Below, one piece after another: positions 12,155-47,827 of a stretch of 64,000 bases of DNA. The translations under genes and the position numbers were made by a program. This DNA comes from Flammeovirgaceae bacterium 311 (lineage in GTDB: Bacteria > Bacteroidota > Bacteroidia > Cytophagales > Cyclobacteriaceae). Position 1 is the first letter of the stretch. The number at the start of each line of letters is the position of its first letter. Below the pieces are notes generated by a model. That model did not search any database. It was not told the origin of the DNA and saw only the letters and a list, made by a program, of their open reading frames with translations. The stretch covers positions 372,001 through 436,000 of the forward strand of contig CP004371.1 of the NCBI GenBank assembly GCA_000597885.1, given 5' to 3'.

Positions 12155-13203
12155 AGCAAATAGGGCTGGTAATTCTTATTCTGTTCATCAACCTGTTGGG
12201 ATGGCATGAGGCTGAAGCGCAAAGGCGTAAGAAGGGTGTTCTGAGGGATATCTTAAGGGTACGCGAGCCGGAAATGAATATTGCAAAGCCGGACACCGTT
12301 GCATTCGAGATGTTTGATAGTGTTTCCACAGCGCCTGCACCCAAATCCGAAATAAAGCAGCAAACGCAATCGCCGGAATTTCAGCCTAAGGATTTAAAAA
12401 AAGAATTATCGCTGGTAGCGGAAGATACTACCGGCATAGAGGCAGATTCTGCCAGCCTGGTAGAGATATCAGAGCAAATAATGATCAATAAGGAATGGTT
12501 CACCCTGCATGAGTATTATGCTGTGTGGGATAGCCGTAATATAAATCCTTACAACATAGACGCCCGCAAGTTTAAAGACACAGTATCATTGGTATTGTAT
12601 GTTCCGCCGGGAGAAAACTGGTCGCCGCCGCTGGAGAATATCCGCATTACCTCAAATTTTGGTTACCGTTCTCCCAGGTGGCATTATGGAACAGACATCG
12701 GGCTCAATACCGGCGACTCGGTCAGGTCTGTATTCGATGGCATTGTACGCATCAGGAAGAACGATCCAAGCGGATATGGCTTATACATTGTAGTAAGGCA
12801 CAAGAACGGACTGGAAACGCTCTACGGGCACCTAAGCAAACAGATCCTCGATGTAGGCGATGAAGTAAAGGCTGGTCAGGTATTAGGCTTAGGCGGCAGC
12901 ACAGGCCGTAGTTCTGGACCTCACCTGCATTTCGAAACGCGCTACATGGGCTCTGCCCTGAACCCCTCCGATGTTTATAATTTCTCTGAAAACACCTTAA
13001 AGGGCGAGACTGTAACAATCTCTTCTGCTAACTTTTCTTACCTGGCAGAAACCCAAAAGGTAGTTTATCACAGGGTGCGCTCAGGGGATACGCTATCCCG
13101 TATATCTGTAAAATACGGAGTGTCCGTAAGCCAGTTAAGGCGTATGAATAAAATGGGCAAAAGCTCCATGCTTAGGGTTGGTCAACGGCTCCGAGTACAC
13201 TGA
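12151..13203 (+). CDS. M23 family metallopeptidase with C-terminal LysM domain
   Basis: An exported peptidoglycan endopeptidase or an activator of amidases. 350 residues: signal peptide at about 1-23 ending in EAEAQ, a linker, an M23 domain near 165-275, and a LysM peptidoglycan-binding repeat near 305-350 (YHRVRSGDTLSRIS). Zinc-site motifs are present: HYGTDIG and PHLHFETR, with LYGHL between. With all zinc ligands kept it is probably an active enzyme, not an EnvC-type regulator. The GTG start overlaps the trxB stop by four bases. The LysM at the C terminus fits a murein-localised enzyme. Confidence 0.9.
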   Translation: MKQIGLVILILFINLLGWHEAEAQRRKKGVLRDILRVREPEMNIAKPDTVAFEMFDSVSTAPAPKSEIKQQTQSPEFQPKDLKKELSLVAEDTTGIEADSASLVEISEQIMINKEWFTLHEYYAVWDSRNINPYNIDARKFKDTVSLVLYVPPGENWSPPLENIRITSNFGYRSPRWHYGTDIGLNTGDSVRSVFDGIVRIRKNDPSGYGLYIVVRHKNGLETLYGHLSKQILDVGDEVKAGQVLGLGGSTGRSSGPHLHFETRYMGSALNPSDVYNFSENTLKGETVTISSANFSYLAETQKVVYHRVRSGDTLSRISVKYGVSVSQLRRMNKMGKSSMLRVGQRLRVH

Positions 13204-13210
13204 ATTAATC

Positions 13211-13936
13211 ATGAAAAAACTTGATCTTTTAGTTATAACCGCCCATCCCGATGATGCTGAACTTTGCTGCAGTGGTACAGTAGCAGCTGAGATTGCTGCC
13301 GGGAAAAAAGTCGGATTTATTGATCTTACCCGCGGTGAGCTGGGTACCAGGGGTACTCCTGAACTTCGGGAGCAGGAAGCTGCAGCCTCTGCAAAACTGA
13401 TGGGCATTGAGGTGCGTGAAAATCTGGAGATGGCCGACGGCTTTTTTCAGGTAGACCGCGCACATGTAATGCAGGTAGTACAGAAGATCAGGCAGTACCG
13501 CCCGGATATGGTGATTACGAATGCGGTTACAGACAGACATCCGGACCACGGACGTGCTGCAGCACTGGTGAAGGAAGCTTTTTTTATTGCAGGCCTGCGT
13601 AAGGTAGAAAGTCAGCTGAATGGAGAACTTCAGCAGGAGTGGAGGCCCAGGTTGCTGCTGCATTTCATCCAGAGCAATTATATACAGCCAGATGTGGTCA
13701 TTGATATATCAGAACACTGGGAAACAAAGCTGGCTTCTATCCGCGCCTTTGGATCGCAGTTTTACAACCCCGAAACTGATCGTGATGAGCCGCAGACCTT
13801 TATCTCTTCAGAAAATTTCTGGAAGTTTGTAGAAGCACGTGCACGAGAATTTGGCCAGTCAATAGGGGTGAGCTATGGTGAGGGTTTTACTGTAACCCGG
13901 CAAATAGGGTTAAAAAGACTGGATGACCTTTTATAA
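13211..13936 (+). CDS. bshB1: Bacillithiol biosynthesis deacetylase BshB1
   Basis: A zinc deacetylase of the PIG-L/LmbE family that removes acetate from N-acetylglucosaminyl-malate, the second step of bacillithiol synthesis. The start at 13211 (MKKLDLLVITAHPDDAE) is preferred over an earlier in-frame GTG at 13178. That leaves 241 residues, the typical BshB1 length. Metal motifs: AHPDD at 11-15 and RHPDHGRA near 110. The distinctive TRGELGTRGTPE segment is also present. It implies that the cell uses bacillithiol as its low-molecular-weight thiol. bshA and bshC are not in the window. Confidence 0.9.
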   Translation: MKKLDLLVITAHPDDAELCCSGTVAAEIAAGKKVGFIDLTRGELGTRGTPELREQEAAASAKLMGIEVRENLEMADGFFQVDRAHVMQVVQKIRQYRPDMVITNAVTDRHPDHGRAAALVKEAFFIAGLRKVESQLNGELQQEWRPRLLLHFIQSNYIQPDVVIDISEHWETKLASIRAFGSQFYNPETDRDEPQTFISSENFWKFVEARAREFGQSIGVSYGEGFTVTRQIGLKRLDDLL

Positions 13937-28522: not shown

Positions 28523-28961
28523 CCATCTCTTTTTGATATTGCTTTTTTTTACATGCCCTACACTGTATGTTGCATCGGGTGAAGTTACCATCCGGCAAAT
28601 ACCTCATAGAGCTGATCCTCTATTGATGAAAGCACCCCATAAAAAGCTGCTGCCTTACAGGAGCATAGGTAACAAATAATAATTGATTACGCTGAAAGAA
28701 ACTCGCTTTGTGATTACATAGAATAATAATATTTTTGTTACTATATCACTCCTTCCATCTATAGCCCCCAACGGCAGAAATCAGTTTATATCAGCAAAAA
28801 AATCATACGAGCTCCACAGGCTGTGGTCTAATATTAAATTAATCAAATATTACAAAATGTATTGTTAAATATGATTCATTGTACGATTTGCAATATTTAT
28901 TGAAGTAATTTCTTTTAAATTCAGCTATCTATATTAAAAAAGGAGATTGTTTTCTTCGTAC
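28523..28961. other. AT-rich intergenic region upstream of the propeller sensor kinase
   Basis: 439 bases without a supported gene. It holds a short GC palindrome (CCACAGGCTGTGG near 28815) and AT-rich sequence with TAATATT/AATATTA arms. An AGGAG at 28941-28945 lies 16 bases before the kinase ATG, too far for normal spacing. I see no exact TAnnTTTG with a TTG at the right distance. Confidence 0.6.
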
Positions 28962-31900
28962 ATGAGTACAATTCAACAGAAAATAAGCTTTATTGCTTCG
29001 TTAGTTCTGCGTTTAATGCTATTGCTATTTGTGCCTGCAGTCTTATCATTTTCCGCGAATGGAAGCCAGGGGCAAATGCTGCAGGCGCTCGATACGGCCA
29101 AAGCATTAAGCCAGTTTACACTGGATAAGTGGCAAATGGAGGATGGGCTGCCAAGTAACGCAATCATGGCCCAGTTAAAGGCAAGGAACGGATATTTCTG
29201 GCTGGCCACATATGATGGCTTATCCCGTTTCGATGGCTACAGGTTTAAAAATTACAATCAGCGTACCCACCCTCAGATACCCACCAATAGTTTTTTTGAT
29301 TTACTGGAGGATAAAGCAGGTAATCTTTGGATTGCCACCAATGGTGGGGGTGTATTGAAGATGACTGGCGAAACCTTTACTGTTATACCGGCAAATGAGT
29401 ATGCACCAAACCAATCTGTTACTTCCTTAGCCGAAGACAAAGAGGGCCAGATCTGGGTGGGAACCCGCGGTGGACTGGGCCTGATAAAAAATGGGGAATT
29501 TGTTTCCTTTCCAGAACTGGATAGACTGCGCAACCAGCAGATCTTCTGCCTTTATTTTGATACCAAGGGAAGTTTGTGGATAGGAACCGTGGGTGATGGG
29601 CTTTGGGAACTGCAAAATGGTTTGCTGCGCCACTATTCTAACATGCAGGGTTTATCCAACAATTCTGTCAGGTCTTTGTACGAAGATAATAAAGGCCGTT
29701 TATGGATAGGTACCGAAGAGGGAATCAACCTGATGCAATATGGCCGTATTCGTGAGATTCCGGTATTCGGAAATAGCTTTGCAGCTTTTATCAACGATAT
29801 ACACCAGGATACCTATGGTACCTACTGGTTTGCCACCAGCGATGGACTTCTGCGGTATGTTAAAGGAGAATTTGAGTTACTGCAGACCGATCCGGATGGT
29901 GGTGCAAATGAGCTGCAGCAATTGTATTCTGATGGGGAAGGAAGCTTATGGATAGGCACCTACTATAAAGGACTGCTGCGCCTTCGCGATGGAAAATTCA
30001 GCAATTACTCACGTGCAGAAGGCTTGCCCAATGAAGTGGTAAATATAGTATGGCCCGAGAAGGATGCAGTATGGGTAGGCACCAATGGTGGCTTAGCTTT
30101 TATCAGGCAGGGCGTTGAACACGTGTACCTGATGGACGATCATTCTGCTGCTAACCGTATTAGAGACGTATTCAGAGATTCCCGTGGAGTGCTGTGGGTG
30201 GGGACTAACGATGGTATCTTTAAGCTGAAGGGGCAAAAATTTGAGCGAGCATTCAGAAAAGGCTCTGGCTTATCATCCGATAAAATCCGCAGAATTGTAG
30301 AAGATAACAAAGGCCGGCTGTGGATTGGAACCCGTAATGGATTATTTGTGAGAAATCCTGATAAGCCGGAAGAGGTTGCTGTGGTTGATGAGCTTTCAGG
30401 TGTTTTTATACTTTCTCTTTTCCCTGATTCTAAAGGTAATATCTGGGTTGCAACCAACGGAAAGGGATTATATTGCTATAAAGGCGGGTTATTCAGGCAA
30501 TACAGTGCTGAAGACGGTCTCTCCAGTAATGTTTTATTTGGTATCTGGGAGGATAGAGAAGGTAACATATGGGTAGGCAGCAACGATGGTCTGCACATTT
30601 ACAATAACAATAAATGGCACAGCATCAATGAAAAGCAAGGGCTTTTTGTTAATACTATTTTTCAGATAATAGAAGATAGCCAGGATCAGCTGTGGCTTAC
30701 CACTAACAGGGGTGTGTTTATGGCGAAGAGAAAAGAGCTGCTATCGTTACTTGATGGAAAAAATTCACAGCTTAAAGCCTTTAAGCAATTTACGGCCTCA
30801 GATGGAATGCGCAGCAGTGAAATAACGGCTGTTTCTTTGAGCACTGCCTCATCAAATGGTCGGCTTTGGTTTGCAACACTTAATGGTGTAAGCGCCATCG
30901 ACCCGAAACGCATCAGTACCAACAGGCACCGACCAGTAGTGAAAATAGAAAAAGTTGCAGGTGATAAATATGAATATCCATTGAATGAACAGGTACGGTT
31001 TGCTGCAGGTACCAAGCAATACGAAATTCAATATACCGGATTTAGTTATTATGCTCCTAAAGCAACAAGTTTCTACTACCTGCTGGAGGGTTTTGACAAA
31101 GAATGGCAGGAAGCTGGCAACAGGAGAGTAGCCTATTATACAAACTTACCAGCTGGTAACTATACATTTAAGGTCAGGGCAACAAATGAAGATGGTATCT
31201 GGAGCAGGGAAGAAGCCTCGCAGGGGTTTGTTCAAGAAGCCTATCTATACGAAAATGCTTGGTTCAGGGCAATCATTATTGCCTTGGTTTTACTTGCCAT
31301 AGTGCTGTTGTACGCTTGGCGCACACGCCAATTGCGGCTGGAAAATCTTAAACTGGAACGGCTGGTAAATGAGCGTACAGATGATATTACCAACCAGAAA
31401 GAAGCCATAGAATATCAGAAAGAGGAGCTTAGCAAGCTCAATCAGTTAAAGGATAAACTGCTTTCGGTATTATCGCATGATCTCAGGCAGCCCTTCAGCT
31501 CTATATCTGGTTTGCTTGCCCTTTTGCGCGAAAGACAGATTGACCAGCATGAGTTTCAGGAGTTTTCAAAAGAACTGAATCAGCAGGTAAAATGGCAGGT
31601 ACATATGCTTGATAATGTGCTGCTCTGGACGCGCAACCAGCTGAAGGGGCTGGAAGTTATGCCGGTCTCGCTGAACCTTTATCAGTTGGCAGAGGAAATC
31701 CTGATGCTTTACCGCACACAGGCCAGCTCTAAAAATATTACGATTGAAAATAACATACTGCATGATACTACAATTGTGGCAGATGCTGACATTCTGCATT
31801 TGATACTGCGTAACCTGGTCGGAAATGCAGTAAAATTTACCCAACTCAACGGAATGATCAGTATCAGTGCCAGTTTTATGAGTGGATACTACCGAATAGA

Positions 31901-32168
31901 AGTAACTGACAACGGTATTGGCATTGAAAGAGAAAAGCTGGAAAAACTTTTTGATTCGTTCCAGCACATACCGGAAAGAGGTACTTCTAATGAAAAAGGT
32001 TCCGGCCTTGGCCTCACGCTCTGCCGTGAATTTATAGAAGCCTGCGGAGGTAGAATATGGGCAGAAAGCAAGGCGGGAATAGGTAGCAATTTTATAATTA
32101 TACTACCGGAAAAAGGAAGTATAATTACCAGAACAGGCCAAAATAAACAGCATGCAGTTATATATTAA
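28962..32168 (+). CDS. Propeller-type sensor histidine kinase (Reg_prop, Y_Y_Y, HisKA, HATPase)
   Basis: A membrane sensor kinase of about 1068 residues. The ATG at 28962 gives an N-terminal hydrophobic segment (about 8-30). A periplasmic sensor follows with roughly 14 Reg_prop blades (repeats such as GNLWIATNGGG, GRLWIGTEEG, GVLWVGTNDG), enough for two seven-bladed propellers, to about 650. Then come a Y_Y_Y domain at about 680-755, one membrane helix near 770-790, a coiled coil, HisKA with the phospho-accepting His near 838 (LSHDLRQPF), and an HATPase with DNGIGIE and GSGLGL. It lacks the receiver and AraC domains of hybrid two-component systems, so a separate response regulator is needed; none is adjacent. 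Its end overlaps the convergent amidohydrolase gene by 11 bases. Confidence 0.93.
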   Translation: MSTIQQKISFIASLVLRLMLLLFVPAVLSFSANGSQGQMLQALDTAKALSQFTLDKWQMEDGLPSNAIMAQLKARNGYFWLATYDGLSRFDGYRFKNYNQRTHPQIPTNSFFDLLEDKAGNLWIATNGGGVLKMTGETFTVIPANEYAPNQSVTSLAEDKEGQIWVGTRGGLGLIKNGEFVSFPELDRLRNQQIFCLYFDTKGSLWIGTVGDGLWELQNGLLRHYSNMQGLSNNSVRSLYEDNKGRLWIGTEEGINLMQYGRIREIPVFGNSFAAFINDIHQDTYGTYWFATSDGLLRYVKGEFELLQTDPDGGANELQQLYSDGEGSLWIGTYYKGLLRLRDGKFSNYSRAEGLPNEVVNIVWPEKDAVWVGTNGGLAFIRQGVEHVYLMDDHSAANRIRDVFRDSRGVLWVGTNDGIFKLKGQKFERAFRKGSGLSSDKIRRIVEDNKGRLWIGTRNGLFVRNPDKPEEVAVVDELSGVFILSLFPDSKGNIWVATNGKGLYCYKGGLFRQYSAEDGLSSNVLFGIWEDREGNIWVGSNDGLHIYNNNKWHSINEKQGLFVNTIFQIIEDSQDQLWLTTNRGVFMAKRKELLSLLDGKNSQLKAFKQFTASDGMRSSEITAVSLSTASSNGRLWFATLNGVSAIDPKRISTNRHRPVVKIEKVAGDKYEYPLNEQVRFAAGTKQYEIQYTGFSYYAPKATSFYYLLEGFDKEWQEAGNRRVAYYTNLPAGNYTFKVRATNEDGIWSREEASQGFVQEAYLYENAWFRAIIIALVLLAIVLLYAWRTRQLRLENLKLERLVNERTDDITNQKEAIEYQKEELSKLNQLKDKLLSVLSHDLRQPFSSISGLLALLRERQIDQHEFQEFSKELNQQVKWQVHMLDNVLLWTRNQLKGLEVMPVSLNLYQLAEEILMLYRTQASSKNITIENNILHDTTIVADADILHLILRNLVGNAVKFTQLNGMISISASFMSGYYRIEVTDNGIGIEREKLEKLFDSFQHIPERGTSNEKGSGLGLTLCREFIEACGGRIWAESKAGIGSNFIIILPEKGSIITRTGQNKQHAVIY

Positions 32169-32850
32169 GTTGTTTTAATTCTTTTACAGATCTGTAAATG
32201 ATATCATTGGCCTGCTGATCGTTTGCCCATTCCTGGTTGAGTTCAAATTCTATGCCTGCGTAGTGAACAGTAAACTGAGTGCGCAGATATGTAGTAAAAC
32301 CATCATCAGTACCCTTATAAGGATAGTTAAATCGTAGCCGAACCTCGGGAATTAATTTTTGAAAAATGCTTTTCCAGTAGTTACACAAATCTTTCTCAAG
32401 CTGTCTTGCAGGATCATAGAGCAGGCCAATGTCGGCATTGCGCACTTTGCCCGCTAATACAGGTGTAAAGCTATGGATACTCAGGTGGTACACCTTATGC
32501 CCCTCTTCGATGAACTGCTTGATGGCAGACTCTACTTTTTTGCGGTAGGGAGTATAGTACTTCTCCAGCACCAGTGCCTTTTCCTTGTCAGATAAGCCCC
32601 CGGTAAATTTCGAAAACAGTTCAGGATGATGCAGGGAACGGTTCAGTTCTACAAGCAGCCTGCTTACTGTGGCAGCATGAGAAAAGTCTGCCATTGGCGC
32701 TAAGAGATGATACAGCTCCAGGGCACCTGGATCCCACCCTCGATGAGAGTCAAGGGCACGTTGTGCCTCTGCATCATAAAACATAGGAGCAAATGCGCCG
32801 GGTATATCGTTGCCTCCATGCTCGCAGGTAATAACCCACCGTGCACTCAT
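32158..32850 (-). CDS. N-formylglutamate amidohydrolase-like protein
   Basis: A 230-residue zinc-dependent hydrolase of the N-formylglutamate amidohydrolase fold (HutG-like), which cleaves an amide on a glutamate derivative. Family blocks: ITCEHGGNDIPG at about 8-19, DSHRGWDPGAL, LLVELNRSLHH and YHLSIHSFTPVL near 98-109 with the metal histidines, then IGLLYDP. No histidine-degradation (hut) genes are near. Instead it is the last gene of a four-gene operon with a GCS2 ligase, a RimK-like ligase and a C39-like peptidase, overlapping the GCS2 stop by four bases. Its substrate is more likely a glutamyl conjugate made by that operon than formylglutamate (inference). Confidence 0.85.
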   Translation of the reverse strand: MSARWVITCEHGGNDIPGAFAPMFYDAEAQRALDSHRGWDPGALELYHLLAPMADFSHAATVSRLLVELNRSLHHPELFSKFTGGLSDKEKALVLEKYYTPYRKKVESAIKQFIEEGHKVYHLSIHSFTPVLAGKVRNADIGLLYDPARQLEKDLCNYWKSIFQKLIPEVRLRFNYPYKGTDDGFTTYLRTQFTVHYAGIEFELNQEWANDQQANDIIYRSVKELKQLNI

Positions 32851-34067
32851 ATAAACTGTTGGTTAGTTACCAGACTATGACTTAACTGCCTGTACACCTC
32901 ACGAATGGCTTCAGGCCTGTAATCATGATTCAGTGAAGCCAGAATACGCGTGCTTAAAGTGCCCCGCTGCAAAATCGTATTAATTACAGCTTTGTAAGGA
33001 GCATCTATTCTGTCGGTCACTTTTTCCAGCAGGTGTTGCCAGAGTTCTCCGGCAGAGAGCGATGCCTCCTGAAGGCCAAAGAGCTGCAGGTATTGCTTGT
33101 TATCAATTATGGTATTCTCCCCGTTTTTGATCACCGCCAGAAATATCGAAGCTAAACTATCCTCACTCCAGCCTGTTTGCTCCTCTAAACCAGCCCATTC
33201 CTGGTTAACCAGGGCCATTAGGCATTCTTTGATGATAGAGAGAATGGCTATATCTGCCAGGGGGCACTCCTGTATGTCTATGATTCTGATTTCGATGGCA
33301 CCACGATCGAAGCGGGCAATAGCACCACGTGAATTTAGAAAGTGCTTGTCTAAAACGCCTTCGGTATCGTATGGTGCAATGGCTTTGCTGATGGGGTAGA
33401 AAATTTGATCATAATACGCCTGTTTGGAAAATACAGGTTCAGGGATAACCTTACCCGCAATCACAGGGATTTTCTTTTGATTATGGCGATAGGTCTCCAG
33501 CCTGGTATCAAGGTAGCCGGTGCTTTTACCATCCAGCAGGGGGGTGCTGGCACTTAGGGCAGGTATAATGGGCAGCAGCAGCCTGATTGCTGCATGCAGC
33601 TGTTTAAATTCATCATCGCCGGCAAAAGGCAGGTTAATATGGGTGCTCTGCAGGTTAGACCAGCCATGGCCTCTGCAGTCGAATATACGGTTGTAAAGGT
33701 TGTAGATGTCTTTTGACTCGTGCTCCCATAAGCGGGTTTCGGTAAAAGGATCCATGAGGGGGTGCGCGCCCGTAGGCAGTAACATGGCTCCCAGGCTTTC
33801 CAGTTGTTTGTTGATCTCCAGCACATTGGCATGGAAATGCTTTTCAAGCCCGCTTAAGCTGGCAGCTGGCTTGTGTGTTTTTATTTCCAGAACATGGTTT
33901 ACCAGCTCATTAGACCAGTCGATGGTCCCATTTTCATAATCCCCCACATACTGGCCCGCCATTTTCCTTAGCAGTTCATCTGCCACTGCTTTTACAGAAA
34001 GGGTGGTTTGGTCTACAATCATGTATTCCATTTCCACACCATAAACTTCAAACAGAGAGTAAGCCAT
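32847..34067 (-). CDS. GCS2-family glutamate-amine ligase (carboxylate-amine ligase)
   Basis: A 406-residue ligase of the glutamate-cysteine ligase type 2 family (YbdK/EgtA-like), which activates a glutamate carboxyl with ATP and joins it to an amine. The ATG at 34067 (MAYSLFEVYGVEMEYMI) is chosen; a TTG at 34073 would only add two residues. Visible active-site segments: VEMEYM with the metal glutamates, STHINLPF near 150, and EIRIIDIQECPLADIAI near 270. The cell shows bacillithiol synthesis, so this is unlikely to serve glutathione. It sits 2 bases after the RimK-like stop and overlaps the following amidohydrolase. Amine partner unknown. Confidence 0.87.
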   Translation of the reverse strand: MAYSLFEVYGVEMEYMIVDQTTLSVKAVADELLRKMAGQYVGDYENGTIDWSNELVNHVLEIKTHKPAASLSGLEKHFHANVLEINKQLESLGAMLLPTGAHPLMDPFTETRLWEHESKDIYNLYNRIFDCRGHGWSNLQSTHINLPFAGDDEFKQLHAAIRLLLPIIPALSASTPLLDGKSTGYLDTRLETYRHNQKKIPVIAGKVIPEPVFSKQAYYDQIFYPISKAIAPYDTEGVLDKHFLNSRGAIARFDRGAIEIRIIDIQECPLADIAILSIIKECLMALVNQEWAGLEEQTGWSEDSLASIFLAVIKNGENTIIDNKQYLQLFGLQEASLSAGELWQHLLEKVTDRIDAPYKAVINTILQRGTLSTRILASLNHDYRPEAIREVYRQLSHSLVTNQQFI

Positions 34068-34069
34068 TA

Positions 34070-35521
34070 TCAAGCAAGCAACTTTTCTATTCTTTTCTTA
34101 AATGATTTCATGATACGGTCGTAGAGCTCATCTTTTAAGACCTTATCTTCCACTCCAGAATCAAGACTGGGGTTATCGTTTATTTCTATCACGTAAATCT
34201 TTCCACCAGATTCTTTGATGTCTACCCCATACAGGCCGTTACCAATTAGCTTGGTAGCCTTCAAAGCAACGTCTATTACCTGCTGGGGTACGTTAGTAGG
34301 ATCAAGGGTTTCGTACCTGCCGGTTGTCTCTTTTTTATTATCCCAGTTATAGATCTGCCAGTGCCCCTTAGCCATAAAATATTTACAGGTATACAATACC
34401 TGCTCATCCAGTACGCCTATACGCCAGTCGAAATCGGTTGGTAAAAACTCCTGTGCAATAACCAGCTCTGACTGATTGAGCATATTGTTTAACTGCTGGC
34501 TTAGCTCTTTTTCGTCTTTTGCCTTGGTTACTCCCTGTGAGAAAGAGGAGTCTGGCAGCTTTAATACGCAGGGAAACCCAAGCTTTTTGCCTACCTCTTT
34601 TTTGTTCTCGCTATGCACCACCATTGTTTTGGGTGTCGGCACCTTATTAAGCTCCATCAGCTCGGCCAGATAAACCTTATTGGTACACTTCAAAATGGAG
34701 TTGGGGTCGTCGATCACAACAAGCCCTTCTGTCTGTGCACGGCTGGCAAAGCGATAGGTGTGGTGGTTTACCGTAGTGGTTTCCCTGATGAAAAGAGCAT
34801 CGAATTCCGCCAGCCGGTCATAGTCTTCCTTGGTGATCAGTTCAGCATAAAAGCCATTCTTTTCTGCAGCTTCTACAAACTTCTGGAGTGCTCTTTTATC
34901 TGATGGAGGAGATTGTTCCGCAGGGTTGTGCAAAATAGCAAGATCGTAGAGGTAGCGGGTATTGCGCACACTCTCATACCGTTTTTTACTGAAGTAGTTT
35001 TTGGCGAACTCCTGCACATAAGGCAGGTGTTCCTCCGGAATCTCCGAGAGCGAAATAGGCTTTATACTTTGCAGCAACCACTTTTTATTATAGGTAAAGC
35101 GGGCCCTGAGAAAGGGTGCCTGAAACTGGCGGTGCAGCTCACGGCACAGCTTTTCGTATTGCTTGGCTACGTTGTGGCCAAAATAGATACTCAGTGTAAA
35201 TTCCTCGGACTTCAGGTTCTTGAGGGTCTTCTGTATAATATCATCCAGCTCTTCAGAAACAATCCTTACAAGCGCAGGCGCTTTCAGGTCCTGGATACTC
35301 TTTACGCTGGGTATGGGTTTGTGTCCCCGGGCTTCAGCAAGCAGCGATACATAGTATCCTTTAGACTGGTAACGATAATCGTTACAAAGATTAAAGACCC
35401 TGGTATTTTGTAACTTGTTGAGCTCTGCCTGTGTGAGGTATGCTTTAGGAGTAAGTACTTGTATCTCATTCAGATCCATCTGAAAGAGATTAGGAGTATT
35501 AGTAACGATTATTTTCTTCAT
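34070..35521 (-). CDS. RimK-like ATP-grasp ligase with RLAN-type N-terminal domain
   Basis: A 483-residue ligase predicted to add amino acids (RimK adds glutamates) to a peptide or protein end. The N-terminal 150 or so residues fit the RLAN domain found before RimK-like ATP-grasp modules (FNLCNDYRYQSKGYYVSLLAEARG). The ATP-grasp fold covers about 280-483: CVLKLPDSSFSQGV, the VIAQEFLPTDFDWRIGVLD strand and the magnesium-binding VIEINDNPSLDSG. All nucleotide- and metal-binding elements look intact. Its ATG overlaps the C39-like stop (ATGA), and the GCS2 gene follows 2 bases after its own stop. A role in peptide conjugation is inferred from the operon. Confidence 0.88.
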   Translation of the reverse strand: MKKIIVTNTPNLFQMDLNEIQVLTPKAYLTQAELNKLQNTRVFNLCNDYRYQSKGYYVSLLAEARGHKPIPSVKSIQDLKAPALVRIVSEELDDIIQKTLKNLKSEEFTLSIYFGHNVAKQYEKLCRELHRQFQAPFLRARFTYNKKWLLQSIKPISLSEIPEEHLPYVQEFAKNYFSKKRYESVRNTRYLYDLAILHNPAEQSPPSDKRALQKFVEAAEKNGFYAELITKEDYDRLAEFDALFIRETTTVNHHTYRFASRAQTEGLVVIDDPNSILKCTNKVYLAELMELNKVPTPKTMVVHSENKKEVGKKLGFPCVLKLPDSSFSQGVTKAKDEKELSQQLNNMLNQSELVIAQEFLPTDFDWRIGVLDEQVLYTCKYFMAKGHWQIYNWDNKKETTGRYETLDPTNVPQQVIDVALKATKLIGNGLYGVDIKESGGKIYVIEINDNPSLDSGVEDKVLKDELYDRIMKSFKKRIEKLLA

Positions 35522-36228
35522 ATCAGATTCTTCGGCGATACAATCAGAATGTTGGCATCGTACGTAAGAATACCCAGGTGAATGGCATTGATTACCCGAT
35601 TAGTTTCAATTTTATAATAATTGGTGCTGGATATCGGATTCTCCTTGTAAGGATCGGCCACCCAGAGGTATTCCCCTTCCAGCTTGGTAAGTACAACAAA
35701 GTGTCCCATTGGTTCCCCTCTAAGGTCATCAAAAATAGAGCGATCCTGCTCATCGGCGTATTCCCGTTTGGTTTGGTACAAATAGGTAGCGCTTAGGCCA
35801 GCCAGGATAGGGATATTCCTGGAAAGATAGCTTTTCAGCAGTGCCTCATCCAGCATTTCCATATTTATCTCACCACCCTTCAGCAAAAATTGCTTGTAGG
35901 CCGCAGTGGCGAGCGTAAACTTTCGTCCTTTTTTGTACTTTAGCTGGGCATCCAGCTTTTTAAGCAACTCTTCCTTAGGCAGCTCCCGCCAGCTTGGATC
36001 AAACATGGTGAGGTTAGAAGTATACATTCTTGCACTGAAGCCTTTGCTCAGGGCATCTAACCCAAGAAATACCGCCAAGGTGCCACCACCTTCCAGGTAG
36101 TTTACGCTTCTGATAACCTCATCAAGGCCAAGGTCATACTTAAAATAATTATAAACAGCATGTAAACTGGTAGGCCCGCAGGTGGAATCGTCCGGCTGGG
36201 CAAGTATCGATAATTTTTTCAACCTCAA
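35518..36228 (-). CDS. C39-like papain-fold cysteine peptidase
   Basis: A 236-residue peptidase_C39-like domain protein with no ABC transporter attached. The catalytic set is complete: Gln 11 and Cys 17 (LAQPDDSTCGPTSLHA), His 176 (GHFVVL) and Asp 192 (VADPY). No signal peptide is seen, so it likely works in the cytosol. The only possible starts are TTG codons (36228 or 36222), because an in-frame stop lies 12 bases upstream and no ATG precedes the catalytic region. First gene of the operon C39-like / RimK-like / GCS2 / amidohydrolase; C39-like and RimK-RLAN genes are often paired in bacteria. Substrate unknown; double-glycine leader cleavage is only the classical C39 activity. Confidence 0.86.
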   Translation of the reverse strand: MRLKKLSILAQPDDSTCGPTSLHAVYNYFKYDLGLDEVIRSVNYLEGGGTLAVFLGLDALSKGFSARMYTSNLTMFDPSWRELPKEELLKKLDAQLKYKKGRKFTLATAAYKQFLLKGGEINMEMLDEALLKSYLSRNIPILAGLSATYLYQTKREYADEQDRSIFDDLRGEPMGHFVVLTKLEGEYLWVADPYKENPISSTNYYKIETNRVINAIHLGILTYDANILIVSPKNLI

Positions 36229-36409: not shown

Positions 36410-37276
36410 ATGGCTACCGCTGATATACTGGTCATTGGTGCTACCGGCACAATTGGAAGGCATCTGCTTGAAGAATTGCAGAAGCATAAGGCTGGCTTCC
36501 GTGCGTTGGTACGGAATACTGAAAAAGCCCGTTTACTGGAACAAAATGGCTATAAAGTTGCTATGGGCGATCTGAGTGATCTTGCATCTCTTAAACGGGC
36601 CATGTATGGTATCAACAAAGTCTTTCTGGTAAGTGCACCCTCTGAGCAGCAGGTTGCCCTGCAGCAGAATGCCGTCGAAGCAGCCAAAGCTACAGGTGTA
36701 AAGCACATTGTAAAAGTATCGGCACTGGGTAGCTATCCCGACTCACCTTTGCAAATAGGCCGTATGCATGCCGAAACTGAAGATTATATTCGCAACAGCG
36801 GCATTTCCTGGACTTTTCTGCATCCGCACAGCATGATGCAAAACTGGCTGGCACATGTAAATCAGGTACGTACCTTGGGTGTATTATATTCTTTTACCAA
36901 AGAGGGGCGCTATGCACCGATCGATGCACGGGATATAGCAGAAGTGTCAGCTAAAATTCTGACAGAAGAGGGGCATAGGGGCAAAACTTATATATTAACT
37001 GGTCCGGAAGCGGTAAGCATGAAAGATGTGGCAGTTGCCCTGGAACTGGCGCTTGATCGTGATATAAAACTGGTAGCAGTGGATCCTGAAACAAGCTATG
37101 AAGCACTGCTGCATGCAGGTGTACCAGACTGGCTGGCTAAAGACCTCTCACACCTAAACCTGATCTACGCCCAGAGCATGGGAAGTGATATCACCACCGA
37201 TGTAGAAGCTATTACCGGTCACAGACCCATTACCGTCAAGCAGTTTGCCAAAGATCATGCCCGGGTATTTCGTTAA
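36410..37276 (+). CDS. NmrA-like NAD(P)-binding SDR protein
   Basis: A 288-residue atypical short-chain dehydrogenase. The nucleotide-binding loop is IGATGTIGRHLLEEL at about 9-23, with ALVRN following the second strand. The motif YxxxK of classical SDRs is missing, as usual for the NmrA/QOR2-like group, whose members are redox sensors or quinone reductases. HPHSMMQNWL near 138 and ITGHRPITVKQFAKDH at the C terminus match that group. It diverges from the C39-like operon with 181 bases between. Substrate unknown. Confidence 0.87.
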   Translation: MATADILVIGATGTIGRHLLEELQKHKAGFRALVRNTEKARLLEQNGYKVAMGDLSDLASLKRAMYGINKVFLVSAPSEQQVALQQNAVEAAKATGVKHIVKVSALGSYPDSPLQIGRMHAETEDYIRNSGISWTFLHPHSMMQNWLAHVNQVRTLGVLYSFTKEGRYAPIDARDIAEVSAKILTEEGHRGKTYILTGPEAVSMKDVAVALELALDRDIKLVAVDPETSYEALLHAGVPDWLAKDLSHLNLIYAQSMGSDITTDVEAITGHRPITVKQFAKDHARVFR

Positions 37277-42459: not shown

Positions 42460-42520
42460 CACTTTAATTTCCAGCAAAAGCCGCAGATTATTCTGTGGCT
42501 TTTGCTTTTCTTTAAAGTGC
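42460..42520 (+). terminator. Large Rho-independent terminator after the PD40-OmpA gene
   Basis: GCAAAAGCCGCAG (42474-42486) pairs with CTGTGGCTTTTGC (42493-42505), one G-T pair, followed by TTTTC. Outer arms CACTTTAA and TTAAAGTG extend the structure. Confidence 0.88.
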
Positions 42521-42566
42521 AATACCACATACATTTCTATCAGCTTATGAAAAGAGGAGCTGTCAT

Positions 42567-43424
42567 ATGGGGAAAGTAGCAGACTGGAGCGAAATTGAGG
42601 TTGCAAGGGTACAGGGAAAGTCTGTGCTGACAAGTTGTAAAAGTCTGCAGCCTTTAAAAATATTGAATCCCCGGACCCATTCTTCCTGCTGCCATGTGGT
42701 GCTATCGAACTATGGTGGTGGCATGGTGGCCGGCGACACCATTCAGCTTAGGATTAAGGGCGCCGCCGATACCCGGCTGGCCATTACCACACAGGCAAAT
42801 TCCCGGATTTTCAAAACGCTAAATGGCAGCGGCGCTACTCAAACATTAGAAGGCGAGCTGGAAAAAGGAGGAGTGGCCGTTGTATTTTCAGATCCTGTAG
42901 TAATGCAGGAGGAAAGCCAGTACAGGCAGTACCAGCGCTGGCAAATTGCCCCTGAGGCCCTTCTTTTTGTAGCAGACTGGCTTAGCTCCGGCCGGGCTGA
43001 CCTGGGGGAGCAGTTTAAATTCAGAAGTTACTCTTCAGAGCTGCAGGTAAAGCAGGGGGAGAAAATGGTACTGCTGGATCGTTTTCAGTTCAGCCCCGGG
43101 GATCATATAGCCGGTTCACCAGCTAATTTTAGCCACTACCAGACTGTTCTTTCCGCCTACATGGTAGGTGATCCTGCTGATCAGCGTTTCCAGTTATTAG
43201 CTGAAGCTTTAAATAAGCTAAAAGAGCAGGAGCAGCCGGAATTAGGATCAGATTTATCAGCGAATGAATGTGTTGTGGCCATCACCAAAGCCCGTGAGGG
43301 GGTGTATGTTTTAAGAGCAGGTGCAAAAAGCCGTTCTGCCATGCAGCCTGTGGTAGACGCTATGATGAATGCCTTGTCCACAGCTGATATCCTTGATTTT
43401 AACCCTTTCAAACGAAAATTTTAG
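42567..43424 (+). CDS. ureD: Urease accessory protein UreD
   Basis: A 285-residue chaperone that binds urease and helps UreF/UreG deliver nickel. Recognisable features: HSSCCHVVLSNYGGGMVAGDTI at about 36-57, TRLAITTQANSRIFKT near 68-83 and the DPVVMQEESQYRQYQRW segment. The ATG at 42567 is preceded by an AGAGGAGCTG Shine-Dalgarno-like stretch at good spacing, which is uncommon in this window. It lies on the opposite strand, convergent with ureG and separated from it by 84 bases, instead of inside the ureAB-C-F-G operon. Confidence 0.93.
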   Translation: MGKVADWSEIEVARVQGKSVLTSCKSLQPLKILNPRTHSSCCHVVLSNYGGGMVAGDTIQLRIKGAADTRLAITTQANSRIFKTLNGSGATQTLEGELEKGGVAVVFSDPVVMQEESQYRQYQRWQIAPEALLFVADWLSSGRADLGEQFKFRSYSSELQVKQGEKMVLLDRFQFSPGDHIAGSPANFSHYQTVLSAYMVGDPADQRFQLLAEALNKLKEQEQPELGSDLSANECVVAITKAREGVYVLRAGAKSRSAMQPVVDAMMNALSTADILDFNPFKRKF

Positions 43425-43508
43425 AGTTTGGCAGTTCTCCTGGTAATAATCAGTCTATGGTATTCAGCATCAGCCTTTTTTTTTCTAAAAAGTTGAGAGG
43501 GGATTTTT

Positions 43509-44261
43509 CTAGCGCCTGTCTTCACGTACAGCCAACAGAGCTTTATCCCTTGCCGTTTTGATGTGGCCGATAATTTCGTCAAGTCCATATCCATCTAGAG
43601 CGCGGGCAAACAGGAAAGGGCCTTCGCCCCGCATTTTCCTGGAATCGCGTTCCATCACTCCCAGATCGGCACGCACCAGATCTTTCAAATCAATTTTATT
43701 GATAACCAGCAGATCGGATTGAGTAATGCCAGGACCGCCTTTACGGGGTATTTTATCGCCACCGGAAACATCGATCACGTAGATGGAATAATCTACCAGC
43801 TCCCTGCTGAAATGTGCAGCAAGGTTATCACCGCCGCTTTCTACAAAAAGATACTCCAGCTTATTGTTGAAGCGGATCATCAGCTCTTCCAGGGCATTCA
43901 TATTCAGTGAAATATCCTCGCGTATGGCAGCATGCGGACATCCACCAGTTTCAACACCAACAATCCTGTCTTCGCTAAGAGCGCTGTTCCTGATGAGGAA
44001 TTCTGCATCCTCACGTGTAAAAATATCGTTGGTAACCACCCCCAGCTGATGCTCGCTGCGCATACGTTCACACAGCGCTTTCAGCAGGGCAGTTTTACCT
44101 GTACCGACAGGGCCGCCAATACCTACGGTAAATGCTCTTTTCCTGAAGTTACGGTAAGATGGCAGCTTACGGGTTTCCCGCTCGTTATAATCGCCCGGAG
44201 TGTCGTACTGCTCGTGGCTATGGCCGTGCAGCAGCAGCGCCAGTTTATCGATCAAAGGCAT
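43509..44261 (-). CDS. ureG: Urease accessory GTPase UreG
   Basis: A 250-residue SIMIBI GTPase whose hydrolysis drives nickel insertion into urease. The P loop is [17 protein letters not shown] at about 48-64, the CPH metal motif is in [20 protein letters not shown] follows, and the guanine-specificity motif is NKIDL. The N terminus carries a short His-containing stretch ([11 protein letters not shown]), longer than the usual start; it may hold nickel in the absence of ureE. It follows ureF by three bases. Confidence 0.95.
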
Positions 44262-44264
44262 ATG

Positions 44265-44945
44265 TTAATTCTGGAATAGTTTGGAGTACACATTTTCATG
44301 AAAAATCTGGGCAGTGTCCAGCATAAATGCAGATCTGGAGGCATCGCCATAAAATTTATTACAATGAATACCTATCAGGTCTTCAAAAACTGAATAAAAT
44401 TGATGCTGCAGCCCATTGCCCTCAATAGCGCCGATAAAACCCAGCCGAATAGCTGCACTTACCTGATCTCTCAGGGCCATGTGCAGGTACATGCTCCTGA
44501 TTTCCTCCAGCGTAAACCCCATTTGCTTCAGCGCCAGTGTATAAACAGGCACAAAATGCAGCGGTAGTTTTTGTGCTGCAAACCAGGCACTAATGGCATG
44601 TATATCTCCACCAGGGTAGAAAGAGTGCAACAGGCTGATCCAGTTTTTTCCCTGCGCCAGACTTGATTTTAGAACCACTGGCACCAGCATCATGGCATCG
44701 TAAGTTTTTACTATCTGCTTTAATTCTTCATCCACATAGGGAAAAGAGTGCACAAAGCAGGAGTTTATAAAAGGTATTTCCATACTTGCCGCCTGCTGCA
44801 GGTAAGCATATAGATAATTTCTTAATTGAAATTGATTACTGATCAGCCCAAAAGTGATGCTGCTCTCCAGTCCGTAAGAGTAGGCAAAAGAACCAGTTGG
44901 AATGGAGGAATCAACCAGGTGAAGCAGGCGGGCAAATTTACTCAT
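44265..44945 (-). CDS. ureF: Urease accessory protein UreF
   Basis: A 226-residue all-helical chaperone that with UreD acts on the UreG GTPase. Family features: the N-terminal LLHLVDSSIPTGSFAYSYGLESS at about 7-29 and the conserved Y near the C terminus (HCNKFYGDASRSAFMLD). Its ATG overlaps the ureC stop by one base (TGATG), and ureG follows three bases after its stop, showing a tight operon. Confidence 0.93.
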   Translation of the reverse strand: MSKFARLLHLVDSSIPTGSFAYSYGLESSITFGLISNQFQLRNYLYAYLQQAASMEIPFINSCFVHSFPYVDEELKQIVKTYDAMMLVPVVLKSSLAQGKNWISLLHSFYPGGDIHAISAWFAAQKLPLHFVPVYTLALKQMGFTLEEIRSMYLHMALRDQVSAAIRLGFIGAIEGNGLQHQFYSVFEDLIGIHCNKFYGDASRSAFMLDTAQIFHENVYSKLFQN

Positions 44946-46666
44946 CAGAAAAGATTATATAATTGTGCCAGTGGTAATTTTGTAGCGGGTTCACAAGTTA
45001 AGTGTACACCATCAACAGTTACCTGGTAAGTTTCCGGATCTACTGCAATATTGGGCAGGTAATCGTTCAGTGCCATATCTTTTTTGCCTATGTTCCGGCA
45101 GCCTTTTACAGCAACCACCTTTTTGGTAAGGCCGTAATGCTCTTTTACATATGCCAGAGAAGCCCCCGATACAAAGGCAACAGAACTTTTGCCAATGGCA
45201 CTTCCCAGAGCTCCGAACATAGGTCTGGAAATATAAGGCTGTGGGGTAGGGATGGAGGCATTGGCATCACCCATTTGCGACTGCACAATAATTCCACCCT
45301 TAATGATCATTTCAGGCCTGGAGCCAAAGAAGGCAGGCTTCCATAAGACCAGGTCTGCCAGTTTACCCTTTTCCACAGAGCCTACCACTTCTGATAATCC
45401 GTGGGCACGGGCGGGGTTAATGGTATATTTGGCTACATAGCGCTTTACCCTGAAATTATCGGCTTGTGCGACACCAGCGGCATCTTCTTGTAATAAGCCC
45501 CTCTGCTCTTTCATTTTATGTGCCGTTTGCCAGGTACGCGTTATTACTTCCCCCACACGGCCCATGGCCTGCGAATCGGAAGCCATAATGGAGAGTGCAC
45601 CCATATCATGCAGGATGTCTTCTGCTGCAATGGTTTCCCCGCGGATACGGCTTTCTGCAAAGGCAACATCTTCTGGTATGTTTTTATCAAGGTGATGGCA
45701 CACCATGAGCATATCGAGGTGCTCGTCGATGGTATTAACTGTAAAAGGTCTTGTAGGATTGGTCGAAGATGGGATTACGTTGGGTTCTCCGCAAATTTTG
45801 ATGATATCCGGAGCATGGCCACCTCCGGCACCTTCTGTATGATAGGTATGAATTGTTCTGCCTTTGAATGCTTTAACAGATAGTTCTACAAATCCGCTTT
45901 CGTTCAGAGTATCAGTATGGATACACACTTGTACATCGTACTGATCGGCGAGGGACAGGCAGTTATCGATGGCAGCAGGAGTGGTTCCCCAGTCTTCATG
46001 AAGTTTCAGACCCAAAGCACCTGCTTCTATCTGTTCCACCAGACCCTCGGTTTTAGATGAGTTTCCTTTGCCCAGGAAGCCGAAGTTCAGTGGGTAAGCT
46101 TCCGTAGATTTCAGCATCATTTCAATATAGAAAGCACCCGGGGTGCAGGTAGTGGCATTTGATCCCGCTGAAGGTCCTGTGCCGCCCCCCAGCATGGTGG
46201 TTATACCAGACGCCAGTGCTTCTGGAATTTGCTGTGGACTGATGAAGTGAATGTGAGAATCGATCGCACCGGCTGTTAAGATCAGGCCTTCGCCAGCCAC
46301 CACTTCGGTTGTTACGCCTACAATCATATGGGGGGAGGTTCCGGGCATGATATGTGGATTTCCTCCTTTTCCTATACCACAAATATATCCATTCTTGATG
46401 CCTATGTCAGCTTTGTAAATACCTGTATAATCAATTACCAGTGCATTGGTGATGATCAGATCCAGTGCATCGGCCTGGGCAACACCGGCAGCCTGCCCCA
46501 TGCCATCGCGCAAAACCTTACCACCGCCAAATTTACATTCTTCACCATATACGGCATAATCCTTTTCCACTTCTACCACAAGTGCTGTATCGCCCAGTCG
46601 TACTTTATCACCAACGGTTGGTCCGTACATATCGGCATAAGCCCTGCGATCAATTTTATAGCTCAT
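44945..46666 (-). CDS. ureC: Urease alpha subunit (catalytic)
   Basis: The nickel-containing catalytic subunit that hydrolyses urea to ammonia and carbamate. 573 residues, standard length. Nickel ligands and catalytic residues are all visible: the HIH pair in [10 protein letters not shown], the carbamylated lysine in [15 protein letters not shown], the [12 protein letters not shown] loop, the flap cysteine and histidines in LMVCHHLD, and the aspartate in [10 protein letters not shown]. It follows the fused ureAB gene by 32 bases and overlaps ureF by one base. Confidence 0.97.
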
Positions 46667-46698
46667 TTGTTTTTCGGAAACAGATTTGTAAAGTTGTA

Positions 46699-47460
46699 CT
46701 ATTGCTCAGTGTGGAAAAAATTCTGGTCTCTCATAGACTGGAGGGCATTAGCTTTGTTGGCATTATCAAGGGTTCCGTCTATAAGTCCACTGCCTCCATA
46801 CACTTTTCTTTCGCCTGCCAGTGCTACCAGCTCAACCTGTTTGCGTTCCCCAGGCTCAAAGCGTACAGCAGTGCCGGCTGGTATGTTCAGCCGGTACCCA
46901 TATGCCAATTCACGGTTAAAAAGAAGCATGGGATTGGTTTCGAAAAATGGATAATGAGAGCCCACCTGTACAGGTCGGTCGCCCATGTTAGATACTTCTA
47001 ATGAAATTACTTGCCTTCCGCTGTTCAGCTCCAGTGCAGCATCCTGCAGGGTGTATTCTCCGGGAATGGCGGTGATGAAATTATCGGGCTGTGCTGTTTT
47101 TACAGCAGCTTGGCTTAATCCAGAGGCATAAAGCGCCAGTTCGGCAATGCCTTTCTGCCTGCAAACTGGATTGTGCACTGTTACTAATTTTGTACCGTCG
47201 GGGAAGGTACCTTCTACCTGCACTTCATCTATCATGCCAGCAACTCCTTCCATCAAATCGTCATGTCCAAGAATTTTTTTTCCTTTGTCCATCAGCTCAG
47301 CAACGCTTTCGCCGTCCCTTATAAATTCCAGCAGCTGAGTAGCAATAAGGGCTACTGCTTCTGGATAATTGAGCTTCAAGCCACGTGCATAACGCTTTTG
47401 AGCAAGAAAGCCTGCATTATGCAACACAAGTTTATCAATGTCTTTGGGAGAAAGGTGCAT
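46699..47460 (-). CDS. Urease gamma-beta fusion subunit
   Basis: A 253-residue fusion of the two small urease subunits. Residues 1-100 are gamma ([42 protein letters not shown]). After a linker at about 102-125, residues 127-245 are beta (IPGEYTL start, [30 protein letters not shown]). In most bacteria these are separate ureA and ureB. A gamma-beta fusion is known as UreA of Helicobacter. It is the first gene of the operon. A stem-loop lies in the leader region upstream. Confidence 0.93.
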
Positions 47461-47827
47461 AGTAAAGAAGCGTCTACTAAATGTAATTTAACACTGCAGG
47501 CAGCATCGGCCTTTTGGCTGACTGACTGCCCTGCATCTACAGTTCATCAGAGAAAAGCTCCATTTACTGTGTATGCTGCTTCTAATTTAAAGCTATTATG
47601 AAATAAAAGAATAAAAATTCAAGAGTGAAGCTCAAAATTTTACCTTATATACTGAAAAAATTAAAATTATATTTCCTGAAGCTTCAATATACTACTGTTT
47701 AGCTACTGAACTGTGCTTAAAAAATTTGAACCTGCGGTAGGTTGATGCTATCAAAACCGATTCAGTTATGTATGGAATGGAAGTTACCATGTTTTACACA
47801 AAAGCCCTATGAAGCATGAGAGCTGAT
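47461..47827. other. Intergenic region upstream of ureAB
   Basis: 367 bases between the ureAB start and the end of the UreH-like gene, both on the minus strand. A stem-loop lies at 47496-47534; the rest is AT-rich with no supported gene, tRNA or exact promoter match. TACATTTA on the minus strand near 47475-47490 is one base off a -7 box. Confidence 0.6.
47496..47534 (-). promoter_or_regulatory. Stem-loop in the putative ureAB leader
   Basis: Arms GCAGGCAG and CTGCCCTGC pair with one bulge, and an inner GGCC/GGCT stem closes a TTTT loop. It lies 36-74 bases before the ureAB ATG. It is not a terminator (no T run after it). It could be a leader control element or protein site; it resembles no riboswitch that I know. 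Confidence 0.35.

Follow-up and report, generated by a model that had tools for sequence, protein, structure and literature searches.

The window analysed here, a 64,000-nucleotide stretch of Flammeovirgaceae bacterium 311 (contig CP004371.1, positions 372,001 to 436,000), carries at 32158-36228 on its minus strand four genes in series, encoding a C39-like cysteine peptidase, an ATP-grasp ligase with an RLAN domain (RLAN-RimK), a ligase of glutamate-cysteine ligase family 2 (GCS2) and a zinc hydrolase of the N-formylglutamate amidohydrolase family (FGase). From the comparison with other genomes it is clear that these genes represent a real and widely conserved enzyme system of a kind (amide ligases together with peptidases) that is already known, with RLAN-RimK and GCS2 as its constant core and an obligate co-occurrence of these two proteins.

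The four open reading frames (ORFs) are tightly packed: the C39-like and RLAN-RimK genes overlap by four bases (ATGA), as do the GCS2 and FGase genes (again ATGA), and a gap of two bases separates RLAN-RimK from GCS2 (Table 1). A convergent plus-strand gene (28947-32168), the end of which overlaps the end of the FGase gene by 11 bases (32158-32168), and a divergent gene beginning at 36410 on the other side limit the operon to these four genes. The C39-like gene starts with a TTG at 36228, with a second TTG at 36222 being equally possible and an in-frame TAA located just upstream; residues of this stand-alone protein (P0001, 234 residues) are counted here from 36222. A motif scan gave nine promoter-like sites versus 7.6 expected and six terminator-like sites versus 4.4 expected. 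All four proteins exceed their Pfam gathering scores, and none reaches an NCBIfam cut-off among the matches listed (for RLAN-RimK the best 25 of 42). The preliminary description of this DNA had claimed a four-gene operon with intact catalytic residues, and ORFs, junctions, Pfam matches and alignments bear out both its coordinates and its active-site residues.

Table 1. Position and assignment of the four operon genes in the window.
Feature	Coordinates	Strand	Basis
C39-like papain-fold cysteine peptidase	35518..36228	minus	PF03412, PF13529, invariant Q/C/H/D, AlphaFold2 model
RLAN-RimK: RLAN domain, pre-ATP-grasp and RimK-like ATP-grasp	34070..35521	minus	PF14401, PF08443, model
GCS2-family carboxylate-amine ligase (glutamate-cysteine ligase family 2)	32847..34067	minus	PF04107; ATG start
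FGase, N-formylglutamate amidohydrolase family zinc hydrolase, Atu2144 type	32158..32850	minus	PF05013, 2odf

RLAN was searched for in 296 Bacteroidota genomes, and the partner profiles were run on the 35 RLAN-positive genomes and on 20 genomes drawn from the 261 negatives, these 20 leaning toward relatives of the window's own genome. Matches with E below 1e-70 were scored as strong, leaving uncounted the weaker matches to distant family members, including those to the C39 and GCS2 profiles (E 1e-7 to 1e-3) in some of the negative genomes. The RLAN-positive genomes consisted of 24 with a stand-alone RLAN-RimK, ten with a GNAT-RLAN-RimK fusion and one further genome (G155), and the sole RLAN of the window's own genome is the RLAN-RimK of this operon. 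Operon-type GCS2 was present in all 24 stand-alone genomes, but in none of the fusion genomes (0/10), G155 (0/1) or the RLAN-negative genomes (0/20). Strong matches to C39 (22/24, with a single stop codon flagged in the alignment of seven of the 22) and FGase (16/24) were likewise confined to the stand-alone genomes, with 0/10 fusion, 0/1 G155 and 0/20 RLAN-negative genomes for each; the weak C39 match in G155 is its GNAT-C39 protein. The genes are also neighbours, with GCS2 adjoining RLAN-RimK in 24/24 genomes, C39 adjoining it in 22/22 and FGase adjoining GCS2 in 16/16. The GCS2 contrast between stand-alone and fusion genomes is significant when counted by genome (24/24 vs 0/10, Fisher p 8e-9) and by genus (15/15 vs 0/4, p 2.6e-4).

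Searching the GTDB species genomes with RLAN-RimK turned up 351 relatives, among them Nafulsella turpanensis with a ligase 71% identical to that of the window; the comparison used the 80 best loci, which are not a random sample. GCS2 follows RLAN-RimK in 77 of the 80 (one of the three misses reaches a contig end), the C39 gene precedes it in 37 (a filtered 36, with L039 added by hand), FGase follows in 50 (leaving out a cut piece in L060), and all four genes are found in 25. According to the record titles, the loci come from Bacteroidota, Fibrobacterota, Planctomycetota, Nitrospirota, Spirochaetota, Chlamydiota, Hydrogenedentota, Sumerlaeota, Omnitrophota, Auribacterota, Balneolota, Uhrbacteria and several "Deltaproteobacteria", and the four genes stand in order in, for example, Nitrospiraceae (L052), Planctomycetota (L053 and L058), Hydrogenedentota (L065) and Sumerlaeota (L076). 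Together with the whole-genome co-occurrence, this conservation of gene order in many phyla rules out chance clustering, and the scattering of genes that the preliminary description had named as grounds for giving up its reading was not encountered. The operon is a self-contained cassette: in 81 neighbourhoods examined for ORFs of at least 60 amino acids, non-core families occurred in at most 11, the largest such clusters being mostly within a few closely related flavobacterial genera. Neither a conserved transporter nor the conserved small peptide gene suggested earlier was found in these neighbourhoods at that ORF size, shorter genes not having been looked for. Where FGase is missing, the genes 3' of GCS2 vary, and encode a methyltransferase, a sodium:alanine symporter, an exo/endonuclease-phosphatase-family protein or a protein without Pfam match.

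Several individual loci deserve separate mention. In Adhaeribacter (L003, 10843-11649) the gene 3' of GCS2, where FGase is missing, encodes a 268-residue protein without Pfam match, a homologue of which is found at the same place in L004. A Parachlamydiaceae locus (L030) is without C39 and has its GCS2 split over two overlapping ORFs. RLAN-RimK and GCS2 are each in two frames in G179 (L082, L135), as is RLAN-RimK in G155 (L128), which reflects either decay or sequencing error. In Legionella adelaidensis the RimK-GCS2-FGase genes are annotated, in the company of fur, bamE, rnfH and a RatA-family gene, on a small circular "plasmid" (L111, NZ_LR134436.1, 9073 bases), which is probably a piece of chromosome.

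RLAN-RimK can also be partnered by GNAT, which alternates with GCS2. The fusion, exemplified by the L106 protein, was seen directly in all ten Bacteroidota genomes counted above, each of them without strong GCS2, C39 and FGase matches, while in an Azospirillum locus (L112) and in genome G155 a GNAT is fused to a C39-like DUF3335 domain, in a gene overlapping RLAN-RimK. In the flavobacterial Xanthomarina locus (L041, 6399-7928) a GNAT-nitrilase fusion lies directly upstream of RLAN-RimK in the place of the C39 gene, and the same gene cluster is found in Bizionia (L057). Both the GCS2 and the GNAT families are able to put an acyl group on an amine, and we therefore infer that GCS2 is the capping enzyme here. 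In a tree of 49 RLAN-RimK rows, two of them with very long branches, the GNAT fusions fall in two separate groups, with no strongly supported branch forcing two origins of the fusion and the bootstrap not yet having converged.

The operon also falls into two halves, one of ligases and one of hydrolases. Four Fibrobacter genomes have the RLAN-RimK/GCS2 pair without adjoining hydrolases, but all four encode operon-type C39 and FGase elsewhere; these two genes are 3 bases apart in L122, overlap by 4 bases in L139, and lie on separate contigs in the remaining two genomes. This supports the view that both halves serve one pathway and that the hydrolases are a module of their own, and it fits the synthesis-plus-trimming function that had been proposed from the window alone.

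With regard to the individual proteins, RLAN-RimK has its RLAN domain (PF14401, 173.4 vs 25 bits, residues 26-170) in front of a RimK-like ATP-grasp (PF08443, 53.2 vs 21, residues 281-455), as required for assignment to the RLAN family. The model of this 483-residue protein (predicted local distance difference test score, pLDDT, 86.3; predicted template modelling score, pTM, 0.67) matches RimK, ArgX/LysX and Ddl in its ATP-grasp part; the best 50 PDB matches align over about 300-334 columns with unspecified ranges, so that a match to the RLAN domain is possible. At 19.8 vs 331 bits it falls far below the cut-off for the RpsF--glutamate ligase RimK (NF007764), and classical modification of RpsF was set aside. 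The genuine RimB-RimK is a canonical pair located apart from the operon in the same genome (L118, 1402-2801), with RimK at 399.1 bits exceeding the same cut-off and a RimB-like partner at 80.7 bits, under its own cut-off.

The GCS2 protein belongs to PF04107 (82.7 vs 21 bits) and is the only GCS2 in its genome. Residues G10, E12, E14, E259 and R261 are invariant across 43 relatives and make up the GxExE and ExR motifs, which we presume to be catalytic. It scores below every NCBIfam GshA/YbdK cut-off (TIGR02050 53.7 vs 176.4; TIGR02048, gshA_cyano, 34 vs 249.05) and below that of PRK13517 (best form 52.2 vs 409), and its profile gives a distant match to YbdK (1r8g). FGase is likewise a member of its family (PF05013, 74.4 vs 28.9 bits), with E10, H11, H36, H122 and H126, the putative zinc-site residues among them, invariant across 26 relatives. 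Its profile is closest to the uncharacterised Atu2144 (2odf, 4.1e-34), and it is far from the N-formylglutamate deformylase HutG (TIGR02017, 16.3 vs 278.75 bits).

The C39-like protein passes the gathering scores of PF03412 (26.7 vs 22) and PF13529 (25.4 vs 24) and has the Q/C/H/D active site of Peptidase C39, with Q9, C15, H174 and D190 invariant across 32 aligned relatives; these are the residues listed earlier as Q11, C17, H176 and D192, numbered from 36228, and they are intact. Its AlphaFold2 model (pLDDT 93.5) matches the peptidase domains of PCAT1 and ComA in a structure search, as well as the pseudomurein endoisopeptidase PeiR (4.4e-6), with weaker matches to the primitive phytochelatin synthase Alr0975 (1.8e-3) and to the amide-forming enzyme CtaG (3.8e-3). 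The fold class takes in enzymes for isopeptide and gamma-glutamyl substrates (PeiR; Alr0975, E 1.8e-3). A role as double-glycine leader protease of an ABC exporter is not supported, as there is neither an ABC fusion nor a conserved neighbour among ORFs of at least 60 amino acids, shorter genes not having been looked for. Bacteriocin-type leader processing was set aside because the C39 protein lacks an ABC domain and no peptide gene is conserved among neighbouring ORFs of that size.

Taken together, our preferred but tentative reading is a make-and-break cycle in the cytosol, with a short glutamyl peptide or a glutamylated small molecule as its product. GCS2 would use ATP to activate the gamma-carboxylate of glutamate and cap the amine of an amino-acid-like acceptor, after which RLAN-RimK would use ATP to activate the carboxylate of the acceptor and join another amino acid, probably glutamate, to it. 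Together the ligases would yield a peptide of the gamma-Glu-X-Y type that shares its topology with glutathione. Its two amide bonds would be cut by the C39-like peptidase and by FGase, which would allow the pool to be turned over, and in the related systems with GNAT in the place of GCS2 the gamma-glutamyl cap would be replaced by an acetyl cap. We infer the reactions, their order, glutamate as substrate and a small-molecule product from the families involved, and the location is presumably cytosolic, with no signal sequence seen by eye. A bolder version, which we regard as rather unlikely, is that of a new class of small gamma-Glu-X-Glu-type peptides, of the same topology as glutathione though perhaps thiol-free, made and recycled by the four enzymes across a dozen phyla, with exchangeable GCS2 and GNAT caps, as a bacterial counterpart of the N-acetylaspartylglutamate cycle.

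Several points weigh against the make-and-break cycle. All four activities, as well as the substrates and the product, are predictions from family membership. FGase does not accompany the GNAT fusions, which makes the parallel to N-acetylaspartate recycling incomplete, and GCS2 and GNAT may be unrelated in what they do; their exchange would mean repeated partner swaps, on tree branches without strong support. The nearest relatives of C39 by structure and sequence are leader-peptide proteases, which would suit a ribosomal peptide as substrate. The hydrolases are moreover missing from many operon genomes and are therefore not essential to the system: among the 24 Bacteroidota operon genomes FGase is absent genome-wide in eight and C39 in two, no strong C39 match was found in 7/7 further Flavobacteriaceae and 2/2 Uhrbacteria genomes, and of 15 genomes searched for FGase ten gave no strong match, the other five being the four Fibrobacter genomes and Adhaeribacter (L003), where FGase is located away from the operon.

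The same enzymes could instead act on a protein or peptide tag, with RLAN-RimK extending a protein C-terminus as RimK does on RpsF, GCS2 branching or capping the extension, and C39 and FGase removing it. The RimK-type fold of RLAN-RimK, the extra RLAN domain that could recognise a protein and the peptide-cutting enzymes that are closest to C39 are all consistent with tagging, but GCS2 enzymes use free glutamate as far as is known, no substrate gene is conserved in the 81 neighbourhoods among ORFs of at least 60 amino acids, and the genome already has its canonical RimB-RimK pair. Even with the pairing of ligase and peptidase known from the RimB-RimK and rlo operons (accessible part of PMC12239564), we consider such tagging improbable. 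A catabolic or salvage unit, in which C39 and FGase would degrade imported glutamyl peptides with the ligases being minor, would be consistent with the pairing of these two hydrolase genes in two of the four Fibrobacter genomes, but is hardly credible given that the two ligases, and not the hydrolases, are the constant core and that no transporter is conserved nearby in the same neighbourhoods and at the same ORF size.

Glutathione synthesis uses the same pair of enzymes, a GCS2 and an ATP-grasp, and a thiol route would have GCS2 make gamma-glutamylcysteine, RLAN-RimK or a GshB-like gene add glycine, and C39 act like a primitive phytochelatin synthase; the weak Alr0975 match of the C39 model and the presence in the genome of a single GCS2, that of the operon, and of a GshB-like gene agree with this. 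The GCS2 scores against gshA_cyano and TIGR02050, the bacillithiol genes BshB1 and BshC and a GshB-like match that is not tied to the operon (see below) make glutathione or a close thiol analogue very doubtful. Similarly small is the probability that we assign to a compatible solute, an osmolyte di- or tripeptide comparable to N-acetylglutaminylglutamine amide (NAGGN). The NAGGN synthetase plan also combines a GNAT with an ATP-grasp, and TIGR03103 bears this name in NCBIfam; turnover enzymes would suit an osmolyte, and several hosts have names that point to marine or salty habitats (Salegentibacter, Salinimicrobium). However, the operon is also found in rumen Fibrobacter and in groundwater genomes, and TIGR03103 is not within the best 25 of 42 NCBIfam matches to RLAN-RimK.

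The thiol genes of this genome clarify what had been claimed about glutathione. The bshB1 gene reported in the window is indeed there (13148-13936, 285.6 vs 182.5 bits), the genome also holds BshC, and it has no E. coli-type GshA (PF04262). The absence of a gshB partner is correct for the window only, since a GshB-like ATP-grasp is encoded elsewhere in the genome (L117/L121; L121 5676-6731), which at 403 bits falls short of the PRK12458 cut-off of 408 and is well below the glutathione synthase cut-offs. Glutathione is still unlikely as the product of the operon, judging by BshB1 and BshC, the lack of a PF04262 GshA and the low GCS2 scores, but not for the gshB reason originally given. Strong GshB-like matches (at least 390 bits) are present in 3/24 operon, 4/20 RLAN-negative and 0/10 fusion genomes and in 0/1 for G155, which means that the GshB-like gene is independent of the operon; a dependence of the operon on it was accordingly set aside. 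The gene lies in a separate cluster (L121 5134-9400; C1 ~1780133-1784399 of the same genome, minus strand) of consecutive genes for a second FGase, a MATCAP/QEGLA metallopeptidase, the GshB-like ATP-grasp and a macro-domain protein. The presence of FGase beside two distinct sets of ATP-grasp and peptidase in the same genome suggests that the family may have a general role in undoing ATP-grasp products. Elsewhere in the window, the genes at 42516-47487 look by eye like a urease cluster.

YbdK-type GCS2, RLAN-RimK and Atu2144-type FGase are common proteins for which we know of no settled function. Our results tie them to one obligate unit, separate its synthetic and degradative halves and show which enzyme replaces GCS2, which opens the question of the substrate to direct tests with four soluble proteins. 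Should a new abundant peptide be the product, it would be an extra metabolite for bacteria that use bacillithiol and not glutathione.

Iyer et al. 2009 (Mol Biosyst) reportedly predicted amidoligase-peptidase neighbourhoods, in which ATP-grasp or other amide ligases are found with unrelated peptidases, and the RLAN domain and the GNAT-DUF3335 fusions are said to stem from that line of work. With amide ligases and peptidases in a conserved neighbourhood, the operon is one of them. Nothing in the results of our full-text literature searches describes this operon, Iyer et al. 2009, where an earlier account would most probably be found, being outside their scope; the new elements are the obligate set, the alternation of GCS2 and GNAT as capping enzymes and the split into two modules. 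PA1345 is presumably the RLAN gene of P. aeruginosa. It is listed with a Cpx-type site in the accessible part of PMC12802237, and in the parts accessible of two other papers Iyer et al. 2009 is cited (PMC4431377 and PMC10318531) and the GNAT-DUF3335 fusion is stated (PMC10318531).

Like this operon, the RimB-RimK and rlo operons combine a RimK-type ATP-grasp with a peptidase, although the latter is a retropepsin rather than a C39 peptidase, and GCS2, FGase and RLAN do not feature in them according to the accessible part of PMC12239564. Glutathione synthesis (GshA/GshB) together with Alr0975 also resembles the operon in having a gamma-glutamyl ligase, an ATP-grasp and a papain-fold enzyme acting on the product, but the operon proteins score below all glutathione-type cut-offs and C39 is nearer to PCAT1/ComA than to Alr0975. 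In mammals, Nat8l and Rimkla make N-acetylaspartylglutamate (NAAG) and GCPII breaks it (accessible part of PMC8836185), with aspartoacylase as the second hydrolase of the cycle of N-acetylaspartate (NAA) and NAAG (accessible part of PMC5756261). As far as these sources go, the mammalian cycle follows the same plan as proposed for the operon, in that an amine is capped, a RimK-like ATP-grasp adds glutamate and two hydrolases undo this. With GCS2 in the place of the acetyltransferase and hydrolases from other families, the likeness of the operon to the NAA/NAAG cycle is one of analogy only, while the GNAT-RLAN-RimK fusions combine in one chain the same two domains as NAT8L plus RIMKLA/B.

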